Assembly (NCBI GenBank): GCA_016868105.1 | Contig: VGIA01000009.1 | Location: 1-41,385, forward strand | Direction: 5' to 3' | DNA: 41,385 nt | Source of the DNA: Betaproteobacteria bacterium | GTDB lineage: Bacteria > Pseudomonadota > Gammaproteobacteria > Burkholderiales > SG8-39 | Shown: one piece after another, positions 22,665 through 41,088 of the stretch | Layout of the letters: each line of letters begins with the position of its first letter | Position numbering within the stretch: position 1 is the first letter of the stretch | Notes under the pieces: model-generated | The model's database searches: none | What the model was told of the DNA's origin: nothing | What the model saw: the letters and a program-made list of their open reading frames with translations, nothing else | Made by a program: the position numbers and the translations under genes

Positions 22665-23404
22665 TCGTGGATGCGATCGAGCTGGCGCTGCTCGCCGCGC
22701 TCGCCTTCGCCGGCTCGGTGGTGTTCGGCATCACCGGCTTCGGCGCTGCGCTGATCACCATTCCGCTCGCGCTGCACCTGGTGCCGCTGCCCTTCGCCCT
22801 GGCGCTGTTCGTGCTGATGGACCTCGCCAACGCCTGCCACATCGGCTTCGAGAACCCGAGGAACGCGGTGCGGGCCGAATGGACGCGGATGGTGCCCGCC
22901 ATCGTGCTCGGGACCGTGGTGGGCGTCACCCTGCTGGTGAATCTGCCGCGCCAGGCGGCGACGCTGGCGCTGGGCGCGTTCGTGTTCCTGTTCGCGCTCT
23001 ACAGCCTGTTCAGCGGCCGCCCATCGAGCCAACGCATCAGTTCGGCGTGGGCATACGTGGCCGGGTTCGGCGGCGGCGTCACCAGCACCGTGTTCGGCGC
23101 CGGCGGGCCGCCCTACGCCATGTACCTTTCGCATCGCGGGCTGTCGAAGGAACAGTTCCGCGCCACGCTCGGATGCGCCGCGTTGACGAGCATCTCGCTG
23201 CGCACCATCGCTTTCTTCGCCACCGGCATCCTGCTCGAGCTCAAGGTCTGGCTCTACGCGCTCGCGATCGTGCCGGCGGGGCTGGTCGGCCTGTGGGCGG
23301 CGGGGCACCTGTTCCGGCGCATCACGCGCGAGACGCTGATGCGCGCCGTGGCGCTGATGCTGCTGGCCACCGGCGTGTCGCTGGTACTCCGGGCCCTGGC
23401 CTAG
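22661..23404 (+). CDS. TauE/SafE (TSUP) family sulfite/organosulfur exporter-like permease
   Basis: A 247-residue membrane protein starting at GTG 22661, overlapping the previous stop as GTGA. The paired TSUP motifs are FGITGFGAALITIPLAL in the first half and GFGGGVTSTVFGAGGPPYAMYLSH in the second, with 7 or 8 hydrophobic segments. Members export sulfite, sulfoacetate, or other small anions, or import some. It is the last gene of the operon and ends in a CTAG shared with the convergent cfa gene. Substrate unknown. Confidence 0.88.
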   Translation: MIVDAIELALLAALAFAGSVVFGITGFGAALITIPLALHLVPLPFALALFVLMDLANACHIGFENPRNAVRAEWTRMVPAIVLGTVVGVTLLVNLPRQAATLALGAFVFLFALYSLFSGRPSSQRISSAWAYVAGFGGGVTSTVFGAGGPPYAMYLSHRGLSKEQFRATLGCAALTSISLRTIAFFATGILLELKVWLYALAIVPAGLVGLWAAGHLFRRITRETLMRAVALMLLATGVSLVLRALA

Positions 23405-24606
23405 CGGTACATGTAGTCCCGCGTCCACGGCAGCGGGTTGCGTGCCGGGTCCGCGGATTTCACCGCCAGCACCTGGTGGATGGTGACCCAGTTGCGCTCG
23501 AAGGCGTGGGCGCAGCCGGCGAGGTACAGGCGCCAGACCCGGGTGCGCTTCTCGCCGGCGTGGCGGCGCGCGGCATCCAGGTTCGCCTCGAGGCGGCGAG
23601 ACCATTGCGCCAGCGTCCGGGCGTAGTGCAGGCGCAGGGTCTCCACGTCCATCGCCTCCAGCCCCGCCGCGGACAGTTCGTGCAGGACCAGCGACAGGTG
23701 CGGCAGCTCGCCGTGCGGGAACACGTACTGCTCGACGAAATCGCCTGCGCCCAGCCCGACCTCGCGGCTGTCCGGGTCCACGGCAGTGATGCCATGGTTG
23801 AGCGCGATGCCGCCGTCGGCCAGCAGCCGGCGCATGGCGGCGAAGTAAAGCGGCAGGTTCTTCAATCCCACGTGCTCGAACATGCCCACCGACGCGATTC
23901 TGTCGAACAGGCCTTCGCCCGCGAGGTCGCGATAGTCCTGCAGCCGCACGCGGCAGCGGTCCTGCAATCCGGCGGCGCGGATGCGCTCGCCGGCGAGCGC
24001 GTGCTGGTTTTCCGACAGGGTGATGCCCGTCGCATCGGCGCCATAGCGCTCGGCCGCGTGCATCACGAGGGCGCCCCAGCCGCAGCCGATGTCGAGCAAG
24101 CGGTCGCCGGGCGCGAGCCGCAGCTTGCGGCAGATGTGGTCCAGCTTGGCCTCCTGCGCCTGCTCCAGGGTCTGCGCGCCGTCGCGGAAGTAGGCGCAGG
24201 AATAGACCATGCGCTCGTCCAGCCACAGGCGGTAGAAGTCGTTGGAGACGTCGTAGTGGAAGCGGATTGCCTGCGCATCGCGGGCGCGGTCGTGGCGCAG
24301 CAGACGCGGCAGGCGGCCCTTGTCCGGCTTGCCCCCGTAGCGCCGCGCCAGCACCTCGGCGGCGCGCAGCGCCTCGTCAATCGGTCCGACGAGCTCGAGG
24401 TCGCCCTCGACGTAAGCCCTACCCAGCGTGGCAAGGTCCAGGCACGTCAGCTTGTGCAGCGCGGAGCCGCGCAGAACGCGGAAGGTGACCGTGGGCCTGC
24501 CGCCCAGTTCGATGCGCCGGCCGTCCCAGAACTCCACCGCCAGGGGCACACCGCCCTGGGCGCCGAGTTCGGCTAGCTTGCGTTCCAGGCTGGCCTGGAA
24601 AAACAT
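23401..24606 (-). CDS. cfa: Cyclopropane-fatty-acyl-phospholipid synthase
   Basis: A 401-residue SAM-dependent enzyme starting at ATG 24606. RFHYDVSNDFYRLWLDERMVYSCAYF is the family's front segment, LLDIGCGWGALVMHAAERYG the SAM loop, and GITLSENQ, GMFEHVGLKNLPLYF, EQYVFPHGELPHLS and AFERNWVTIHQV complete the usual order, including the bicarbonate-site Glu/His region. It adds a methylene group across cis double bonds in membrane lipids, often under stress or in stationary phase. It lies 60 bp downstream of gor on the same strand and may be in that operon. Mycolic-acid type relatives are unlikely here. Confidence 0.93.
   Translation of the reverse strand: MFFQASLERKLAELGAQGGVPLAVEFWDGRRIELGGRPTVTFRVLRGSALHKLTCLDLATLGRAYVEGDLELVGPIDEALRAAEVLARRYGGKPDKGRLPRLLRHDRARDAQAIRFHYDVSNDFYRLWLDERMVYSCAYFRDGAQTLEQAQEAKLDHICRKLRLAPGDRLLDIGCGWGALVMHAAERYGADATGITLSENQHALAGERIRAAGLQDRCRVRLQDYRDLAGEGLFDRIASVGMFEHVGLKNLPLYFAAMRRLLADGGIALNHGITAVDPDSREVGLGAGDFVEQYVFPHGELPHLSLVLHELSAAGLEAMDVETLRLHYARTLAQWSRRLEANLDAARRHAGEKRTRVWRLYLAGCAHAFERNWVTIHQVLAVKSADPARNPLPWTRDYMYR

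Positions 24607-37962: not shown

Positions 37963-37963
<1 letters not shown>
36893..37963 (+). CDS. Phosphotransferase (APH fold) family kinase, ACAD10/11- or LvaA-like
   Basis: A 356-residue kinase-fold protein starting at ATG 36893. [27 protein letters not shown] is the nucleotide loop with its lysine, [15 protein letters not shown] is the Brenner motif and [16 protein letters not shown] the metal-binding aspartate. This subgroup is not an antibiotic kinase. In human ACAD10/11 and in the Pseudomonas lva system it phosphorylates the 4-hydroxyl of 4-hydroxyacyl-CoA so the dehydrogenase partner can eliminate phosphate. Its stop overlaps the acyl-CoA dehydrogenase start (TAATG), which supports the same two-step role here. 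Confidence 0.9.
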
Positions 37964-39209
<1,246 letters not shown>

Positions 39210-39210
<1 letters not shown>

Positions 39211-39311
39211 TGAGGCCCCTGGCGGCTTCGCTGCTCGCGCTGGTGGCGACCGCGACGAGCGCGCTAGGAGATCCTGGCGCCGCCGGCCAGGCTCGACCTA
39301 GATCTGCCTGA
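39210..39311 (+). pseudogene. Signal-peptide stub of a secreted protein gene
   Basis: ATG 39210 overlaps the previous stop (TGATG) and encodes MRPLAASLLALVATATSAL then 14 polar residues before TGA. The first 19 residues form a complete signal peptide, but nothing mature follows. The 3' end overlaps the end of the vapC gene. I infer the rest was deleted, possibly when the toxin-antitoxin module arrived. Confidence 0.45.
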
Positions 39312-39729
39312 GGTGCTTGCGCGTCGCGCCGCGAACCGCGCCGAGCGCCAGTGATTCGTCGAGGGTGACCAGGCAGCCGTCATTGTCCACCGCGAGCGCC
39401 AGCAGGTAGGCGTCGGTGATCTGGCGATGACCGTGTAGGCGCGAGAAGTCGAAGCGCCGCTGGTCGCGCAGGCTGAGGTCGTCCGGCCAGAACGCATGAT
39501 CCATCTGCGCGCAGGCCGTACGCAGGTGCCCGGTCACCTGCCCCGGCGTGAGCGAGGCCTCCTTGCTGTACGCGGGGGAACTGAGGATCCGGGCAACGCC
39601 ATTCTCGATGATCGGACAGGTTGCGATCGGCCGCGCCTGTGCCTGCAGCCAGGCATTGGCGCGGTCGGAGAAGACGTGGGCGTCGTCCAGGAGGGCAATC
39701 CAGACGTTCACGTCCAGCAAGGCCCGCAT
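39298..39729 (-). CDS. vapC: PIN-domain toxin, VapC-like
   Basis: A 143-residue protein starting at ATG 39729, overlapping the antitoxin stop (ATGA). PIN active-site acids are Asp6 in RALLDVNVWIALLDD, Glu42 in CPIIENGVARIL, Asp106 in QITDAYLLALAVD and a fourth near GCLVTLDESLAL. TACAQMDHAFWPDDLSL is typical of the subgroup that cleaves specific RNAs. VapC toxins are ribonucleases that stop translation when their antitoxin is lost. The product is of full length and no acid is missing, so it is probably active. Confidence 0.9.
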   Translation of the reverse strand: MRALLDVNVWIALLDDAHVFSDRANAWLQAQARPIATCPIIENGVARILSSPAYSKEASLTPGQVTGHLRTACAQMDHAFWPDDLSLRDQRRFDFSRLHGHRQITDAYLLALAVDNDGCLVTLDESLALGAVRGATRKHLRQI

Positions 39730-39968
39730 CAGAGCCCTTCTTCGTCGGCCACCTTGCGCACATGCGCGAGCGTGACGATTTCCCCGCGCCGGGGCAGCAG
39801 CGCGAGGCGGCCGCGCAGCTTTGCGGCCTTGCCGGCCGGCGCGGCGGGCGAGGACAGGCCGGCGCGCGCCAGCGCCGTCAGCGCCTGGCCTAGGGAGATC
39901 TTCTCCCGTGCGGCGCGTTCCTTCGCCGCGAGCAGGACGTCGTCTTCGATGTCGATGGTGGTGCGCAT
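39729..39968 (-). CDS. vapB: Ribbon-helix-helix antitoxin, VapB-like
   Basis: A 79-residue protein. ATG 39968 (MRTTIDIEDDVLLAAKERAA) is chosen because MRTTIDIEDD is the beta strand and first helix of a ribbon-helix-helix DNA-binding domain; the longer frame runs through the upstream palindromes and another gene's remnant. ISLGQALTALARAGL is helix 2. The rest (GRLALLPRRGEIVTLAHVRK) should wrap the toxin. Such antitoxins bind palindromes at their own promoter, and a 30-bp perfect one starts 25 bp upstream. Confidence 0.85.
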   Translation of the reverse strand: MRTTIDIEDDVLLAAKERAAREKISLGQALTALARAGLSSPAAPAGKAAKLRGRLALLPRRGEIVTLAHVRKVADEEGL

Positions 39969-39992
39969 GGCGGGGCCTTTCCCGGGGTGCTG

Positions 39993-40022
39993 GATGCTAT
40001 GATGCGATCGCATCATAGCATC
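39993..40022. promoter_or_regulatory. 30-bp perfect palindrome, probable VapB operator
   Basis: GATGCTATGATGCGA is followed directly by its reverse complement, centred on GCGATCGC. It lies 25 bp before the vapB start codon. Each half carries TATGAT, which could serve as a -10 box on either strand. Two or more ribbon-helix-helix dimers could fit. Binding is inference. Confidence 0.75.
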
Positions 40023-40050
40023 TGGATGCCCGTGGCCCGCTTTTCCCGCC

Positions 40051-40074
40051 CAATGTAACCGAGCGGTTACATTG
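40051..40074. promoter_or_regulatory. Second palindrome, operator-like, between vapB and kynA
   Basis: CAATGTAACCG and its exact reverse complement are separated by AG. The TGTAACCG-CGGTTACA core looks like a LacI- or TetR-type operator. No such regulator is encoded in the window, so its binding protein would act from elsewhere. It differs in sequence from the vapBC palindrome. Confidence 0.6.
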
Positions 40075-40079
40075 AGCGG

Positions 40080-40247
40080 GGTTTCAGGCCCCCCCGACAG
40101 GACCGTTCCCACCGCCCGCGCCGCCGCCTGCAGCTCCTCCTCCGGGTTCAGGATGTCCGGGCACAGGTGCAGGTATTCCCCGCGGGCGTCGGTCTTGACG
40201 CCGCGGCGCATCTGCTGCGCCGAAATACTCGCCGCTTCCGGAGGTAG
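40080..40247 (-). pseudogene. C-terminal remnant of a fold-type I PLP enzyme (class V aminotransferase-like)
   Basis: On the minus strand the sequence reads ISAQQMRRGVKTDARGEYLH then LCPDILNPEEELQAAARAVG before running into the palindrome. The R-G-V-x-x-D-x-R-G, a C/G-P-D-x-L-x-x-x-E-E-L spacing, matches the end of class V aminotransferases and kynureninase-like proteins. The body of the gene is missing. It sits directly downstream of kynA, where a tryptophan-pathway partner could once have been. The family call is tentative. Confidence 0.45.
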
Positions 40248-40248
40248 A

Positions 40249-41088
40249 TCACGCCCCCAGCCCCGTGCGCACGTCGATAAGCTCCGGGAACAGGGTGCGC
40301 TCGAGCGTCTTCCTCAGGAACGCCACGCCCGAAGTGCCGCCGGTGCCGCGCTTGAAGCCGATGACGCGCTCCACGGTCTTCACGTGCCGGAAGCGCCAGA
40401 GCTGGAAGTTCTCCTCGACGTCCACCAGCTTCTCGCACATGTCGTAGGCATCCCAGTGCGCCTTCGGGTCCTGGTAGATGGCGCGGAACACCGCGACCAC
40501 GCCGGGGTGCGCAGCGTAGGGCTGCGTCCAGTCTCGCTCCACCACCTGCGCCGGCAGCGACATGCCGCGGCGCGCGAGGTGGCGCAGGAACTCGTCGTAG
40601 AGGCTGGGCGATTCCAGCAGCCCTGTCAGCCAGCTGTGGATCGCGGCGTCGTGGCGGTGGACTTCCAGCATGCTGGCGTTCTTGTTTCCGAGCATGAACT
40701 CGATGGCGCGGAACTGGTAGGACTGCAGGCCGGAGGCGGGCCCAAGGTCCGGGCGGAACTGCGCGTACTCGGAGGGCGTGAGCGTCTCCAGCACCGCCCA
40801 CTGCTCGAACAGCTGCCTTTGCACTTGCTTCACGCGCGCCAGGATTTTGAAGCAGGGCGCGAGCTCGCCTGCGCGGATGAGCGCGATGGCGGAGGCCAGC
40901 TCGTGAAGCATCAGCTTCATCCACAGCTCGGAGGTCTGGTGCTGGATGATGAACAGCATCTCGTCGTGGTGCGCCGAGCGCGGCTTTTGCGCGGACAACA
41001 GCTGCGGTAGCGCGAGGTAGCTGCCATAGGAGGTGTCGGCGGCGAGGTCGGTGATGAACTCGGGACGGTCGGTCGGCGTCGTGCTCAT
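40249..41088 (-). CDS. kynA: Tryptophan 2,3-dioxygenase
   Basis: A 279-residue haem enzyme starting at ATG 41088. [39 protein letters not shown] with distal His50, [19 protein letters not shown] and [22 protein letters not shown] with the axial His235 are the family's hallmark segments. It opens the indole ring of L-tryptophan to N-formylkynurenine, the first step of the kynurenine path. No kynB or intact kynU gene is visible in the window; only a possible class V remnant lies next to it. The gene is divergent from the glutathione S-transferase gene. Confidence 0.95.

Follow-up and report, generated by a model that had tools for sequence, protein, structure and literature searches.

An intergenic palindrome behind a truncated aminotransferase gene is probably one copy of a lineage-restricted, REP-like dispersed repeat

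Introduction

What does a strong palindrome do between a truncated aminotransferase frame and a toxin-antitoxin-like gene pair, with no regulator gene at its side? The question is raised by a contig of a betaproteobacterium, from which we analysed a stretch of 41,385 nucleotides, here called the window. The original prediction, made from the letters alone, proposed that the palindrome might be a TetR/LacI-type site for a distant regulator or the boundary of an inserted segment, and named a genome-wide motif search as the way to check it. That search found many copies. We describe their number, placement and conservation across related genomes and conclude that the window site is probably one copy of a REP-like dispersed palindromic repeat with the core ATGTAACCGATCGGTTACAT, restricted to one lineage, and not the operator of a neighbouring gene.

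Results

The palindrome and its neighbours

The sequence CAATGTAACCGAGCGGTTACATTG is present in the window letter for letter as first described, with the centre GAGC in place of the GATC that is usual for the family. The palindrome is real and not a product of chance: at up to three mismatches it is the sole match across the whole window, and 100 dinucleotide shuffles of the window gave 0 matches. The inverted repeat extends further (arms 40045–40061 and 40064–40080, 94% complementary), and as a single strand this longer segment is predicted to fold at about −28 kcal/mol. No T-run follows the stem, a terminator scan of positions 39900–40300 found no intrinsic terminator, and an Rfam search returned sub-threshold microRNA matches only, as any long hairpin would give.

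A first palindrome, 28 bp away, is unrelated in sequence, as the original prediction had noted, and lies outside the dispersed family (Table 1). Its position directly upstream of the antitoxin-like ORF indicates that it is probably the operator of that vapBC-like pair. This small ORF upstream of the PIN-domain gene is also the nearest possible DNA binder and has a palindrome of its own; the statement that no local regulator is present was borne out, with no TetR- or LacI-like gene adjoining. The PIN-domain gene separates the palindrome from the acyl-CoA dehydrogenase gene. The supposed truncated aminotransferase frame proved genuine, its codons matching the C terminus of the intact class-V aminotransferase (L061:4565-5713) of a sister species, G066; the frame has no clean end before the palindrome.

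Table 1. Features of the window around the palindrome.
Feature	Position	Strand	Basis
Acyl-CoA dehydrogenase	37963..39210	+	profile search
PIN-domain protein, VapC-like	39298..39729	-	PF01850, E=4.2e-7
Small ORF, VapB-like from its antitoxin position	39729..39968	-	profile search; no Pfam match
First palindrome GATGCTATGATGCGATCGCATCATAGCATC, perfect, 30 bp	39993..40022	.	inverted-repeat scan
Extended inverted repeat, 17-bp arms, one mismatch	40045..40080	.	inverted-repeat scan
Copy of the dispersed palindrome, CAATGTAACCG-AG-CGGTTACATTG	40051..40074	.	sequence match
C-terminal remnant (41 aa) of class-V aminotransferase	40089..40211	-	87.5% identity to G066 copy
Tryptophan 2,3-dioxygenase, first gene of aminotransferase operon	40249..41088	-	PF03301, E=3.8e-63

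A dispersed family in three sister species

The window's own assembly (G000; 2.51 Mb in 190 contigs, completeness 96%) contains 7 exact copies of the core TGTAACCGNNCGGTTACA; the count rises to 18 with up to two and to 24 with up to three mismatches, compared with 0–3 matches for the reversed core as a control. Seven more copies with intact arms appeared when a longer centre was allowed; these have centres of 5 instead of 4 nt (e.g., GATCC or GGTTC) and make up 7 of the 15 copies whose arms are intact. When 84,980 species genomes were scanned with a 20-mer in which two centre bases were left free, 96 stretches were returned, most of them in assembly JALHLN (matched here to G066) and the others mainly in SXNB (matched to G061). 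Exact copies exist in only five of 98 genomes of the family-rank group. G066 carries 84 exact copies and 112 at up to three mismatches, where the control gives 2–3, and G061, at 56% completeness, carries 14 and 51, respectively; the other ten members of the genus were at control level. The family is essentially confined to these three sister species of one betaproteobacterial genus. Viral contigs contained no exact match and a plasmid collection no similar stretch, and an origin from viruses or plasmids was therefore rejected. No mention of the 16-bp core was found in the literature searched.

Two further repeats were noticed along the way. Thermogemmatispora (L045, L050, L082) has a longer palindrome with arms around GTAATTCAT..ATGTAACCG that shares the core by sequence only. 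A second dispersed repeat, similar to AAAACGTGGACTGTCCCTG, was seen in noncoding segments, 19 of them within 787 kb of G066 and 5 within 284 kb of G060.

Copies lie behind stop codons

Genes were called with a simple codon-usage gene finder written for this analysis; its calls are approximate, and the genes of the window came out as expected. The three genomes together have about 141 distinct sites, of which 71 fall in convergent, 47 in tandem and 5 in divergent gaps, with the remainder within genes or at contig ends; all three genomes are fragmented metagenome assemblies, and counts across related genomes are not independent. Most tandem copies sit within 30 bp behind the upstream stop codon and usually far from the next start. 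The same preference is seen in an unbiased 787 kb of G066 (94% coding), where a copy occupies 11 of the 110 gaps between convergent genes, 7 of the 543 between tandem genes and 1 of the 111 between divergent genes (convergent vs divergent, p=0.003; convergent vs tandem, p=2e-5) and is absent from promoters and most coding sequence. The palindrome contains a TAA, which is itself the stop codon at 22 of the 189 gene ends next to a copy.

Some copies are located in frame within genes. The palindrome translates as NVTDRLH, and this peptide is encoded at one and the same place in the rdgB genes of the window genome (L194 4977) and of G066 (L097 3292-3549); the residues right after it differ between the two. 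Separately, copies or near-copies of TGTTACCGATCGGTAACA were seen in frame as MLPIGNI or MLPIGHI within housekeeping genes that, judged from sequence, are gltX-like (L293 9679), mnmA-like (L190 3020) and galU-like (L021 2682).

Orthologous positions and gain of copies

Partial sampling recovered 24 orthologous copies common to G061 and G066, 6 common to the window genome and G061, and 4 common to the window genome and G066. Of 666 four-fold sites in four genes, 92 had changed on the G061 branch, 60 on the G066 branch and 76 on that of the window genome. By contrast, nearly all copies in G066 have one and the same sequence, including the centre; most of these loci came from the exact-match scan, which makes their few mutations partly a selection effect. 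In the unbiased 787 kb of this genome, 18 copies were exact, and the sole close variants were other half-site versions, including the TGTTACC type. The copies in G061 and the window genome show scattered changes, mostly one-sided.

Several junctions record the gain of a copy. The stop codons of def and glnD are separated by 42 bp containing the palindrome in G066 and G061 vs 3–9 bp in the window genome, G060 and G059, and the pairs lpxH-metZ and orn-ridA are adjacent without the palindrome in several relatives. Altered versions (TGCAACCGGATCGGTTACA, GCTAACCGATCCGGTTACG) stand at the lpxH-metZ and L022 junctions of the window genome, and its pcm junction has no version at all. From the def-glnD, lpxH-metZ, pcm and rdgB comparisons we infer that each copy arrived as a unit and that coding sequence at times tolerated one; copying by insertion would explain the presence and absence at orthologous junctions.

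In both sister species, a copy orthologous to that of the window follows the same aminotransferase gene. In G066 the gene is intact and the palindrome lies 11 bp behind its stop codon; in G061 (L174 1123-1248) and in the window genome only the C-terminal end of the gene is left, with the palindrome still behind it. The neighbour beyond the palindrome is vapBC-like in the window genome, ccdAB (PF07362, PF01845) in G066 and another gene in G061. In most relatives that lack the family, the aminotransferase and its convergent neighbour overlap or are separated by a short gap (54 bp in G062), and in several palindrome-free species a relative of the acyl-CoA dehydrogenase borders directly on the end of the aminotransferase gene. 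The palindrome has thus been kept with the 3′ end of the aminotransferase gene through exchange of the other side, which suggests an old passenger of that gene end. The proposed insert boundary holds as a description of position, as the aminotransferase side is constant in three species and the far neighbour changes; it does not hold as the end of one particular inserted element, since the same palindrome is found at many unrelated places. As an observation of its own, toxin-antitoxin modules of different families stand behind the aminotransferase in two species, the window genome and G066.

Modular half-sites

In G066 the family extends to a frame TGT-nnn-CGATCG-nnn-ACA that also holds mixed half-site versions (TGTAACCGA, TGTTACCGA, TGTGCACGA). 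In a 1.28 Mb sample of this genome, part of which is biased to the AAC.AAC type, the half-site pairs were AAC.AAC (76), GCA.TAC (9), TAC.TAC (8), GCA.GCA (7), GCA.GTA (3) and AAC.GCA (2). Single half-sites showed no excess, all arms found being accounted for by palindromes, and neither larger inverted repeats nor GC-rich hairpins were clearly in excess in the flanks. G066 also has related palindromes built from different half-sites (TGTTACCGATCGTGCACA, TGTGCACGATCGTGCACA; L290, L295, L287, L313, L017), and its mixed half-site palindromes often lie near gene starts or within gene beginnings, clustered in places.

The same 20 bp at unrelated positions, with the centre included, together with the mixed half-sites of G066, suggest that double-stranded DNA is recognized by a two-subunit protein. 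The additional centre nucleotide in about half of the intact-arm copies of the window genome counts against a rigid dimer site. Recognition by a putative protein is the likelier mode overall.

Discussion

The placement behind stop codons and between convergent genes would also suit a bidirectional terminator or 3′-end RNA hairpin, transcribed from either side and ending or protecting the transcript. The core is predicted to fold at about −10 to −12 kcal/mol, to which the long-arm window copy adds a much stronger stem, the arms are kept in window-genome copies with differing centre length, and few canonical hairpin-plus-U terminators occur in these genomes. However, the flanks of the copies have no U-run, and the hairpin followed by a U-run that defines an intrinsic (Rho-independent) terminator is therefore missing; in G066, conservation of the loop GATC (76/81) equals that of the stem; mutated tandem copies, read on the transcribed strand, retain 8 G.U vs 7 A.C pairs, so that G.U is kept no more than other mismatches; and the mixed half-site pairs cannot fold into a full hairpin, a point in favour of half-sites being recognized in double-stranded DNA. 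An RNA hairpin under selection on the transcript was rejected on the negative strand test, the conserved loop and the lack of a U-run, and a terminator in the wider sense appears doubtful, if still worth serious consideration. A roadblock or insulator made of double-stranded DNA, where a dimeric protein at gene ends would halt RNA polymerase in both directions and copies would be under selection, fits the near-exact symmetric site of G066 including its centre, the modular half-sites around a fixed CGATCG, the freedom of promoters and most coding sequence from copies, and the positions common across species. Against it, the binding protein is only putative, the spacing varies in the window genome, and copies within rdgB and other genes would block transcription. 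We consider it unlikely as a separate explanation; it overlaps with the dispersed-repeat reading, which does not commit the binder to any one role. More speculative still, and rather improbable, is an extension to clade-specific gene-end marks, in which about a hundred palindromes would be occupied by a predicted dimeric protein that blocks or insulates transcription and replaces intrinsic terminators, with related specificities for the half-sites TGT-AAC-CGA, TGT-TAC-CGA and TGT-GCA-CGA.

A scar or recombination site left by deletion or exchange of DNA initially seemed attractive. Genes flanking the palindrome were neighbours in relatives in 2 of 14 cases, compared with 56 of 95 at other intergenic gaps; at the window copy, one neighbour is constant and the other varies; and one G061 copy stands where the window genome, G066 and several other relatives have about 0.7–1.4 kb of additional sequence between the same two genes (in the window genome a 1.2-kb gene, window 23401-24606). 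In a larger, hand-tallied set, however, adjacency was 18 of 35 vs 28 of 36 for controls, a weak difference between non-independent counts, and copies were gained without gene loss at the def-glnD, lpxH-metZ and pcm junctions. These clean gains contradict a general deletion scar, and we give this explanation a small chance. Least probable of all is the operator of a distant TetR/LacI-type regulator that the original prediction had put forward. A symmetric site of 18–20 bp has a suitable size, and no local regulator is present, but the copies lie at gene ends and hardly ever in promoters of genes that such a regulon would control; this placement, with hardly any divergent gaps, takes promoter-regulon logic out. 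Nor would an operator be expected to number about a hundred near-exact copies in one genome and to be missing from most members of the genus.

We therefore favour the dispersed repeat for the window site, with good though not full confidence. In this account, the repeat would have spread among the ancestors of a few sister species, settling where it was tolerated, in the great majority of cases in the short intervals that follow stop codons and now and then in frame within coding sequence, and the palindrome may be read as double-stranded DNA by a candidate two-subunit protein, either a mobiliser or a binding factor of gene ends. No mobilising enzyme for it was found in the genomes examined. 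An apparently orphan operator hence becomes a member of a dispersed family, and strong intergenic palindromes call for a genome-wide and positional check before they are called operators.

Comparison with known systems

Operators of the TetR family are symmetric sites of 18–20 bp; the present family differs in being outside promoters and in having far too many exact copies. DNA uptake sequences (DUS/USS) can form inverted pairs at gene ends that could double as terminators, and their typical copy number is far above that of the family described here. An uptake sequence was rejected, as single half-sites are not over-represented in the genome. Rickettsial palindromic elements likewise include in-frame copies within genes or copies altering protein ends (PMC3733652), whereas the present family is short, mostly outside genes, and unrelated in organism and sequence.

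The closest likeness is to REPs, which are 20–40 bp long and present in high copy, lie between convergent genes or after tandem ones, in many cases less than 20 bp from a stop codon, which they sometimes supply, are in some cases intragenic and are often lineage-specific (PMC3733652). Copy number (112 in G066, 24 in the window genome), size, location near the stops of convergent or unidirectional genes and stop-codon supply all correspond, and in this broad sense the family belongs with them. REPs of the GTAG/CGTC kind are tagged, whereas the present family is fully symmetric, untagged and of one nearly invariant sequence; of 236 flanks examined over 16 bp, 19 contain GTAG, some of them through TAG stop codons, and 12 contain CGTC, and neither qualifies as a tag. 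It further differs in its few pairs or clusters, its modular half-sites and the lack of flanking of a RAYT gene. A RAYT-like PF01797 gene exists at one locus common to the window genome, G066 and G061, where the palindrome is absent, and this gene family is also present in five genus members without the palindrome family. Mobilisation by RAYT as a REP/REPIN was rejected for want of a tag and of palindromes flanking the gene. In G068 (L135 1067, 1132, 1905), a RAYT-like gene is flanked by inverted copies of another sequence, AAATCGGGGTCAGAGCCCGATTT. With REP-like features and neither tag nor RAYT link, we file the family as a REP-like, untagged variant and not as a tagged REP family. As such it offers a clean test case, a fully symmetric repeat at positions common to sister species and near-invariant in one of them, whose binder or mover would reveal a new spreading route for very small palindromes or a protein-based marking of gene ends.
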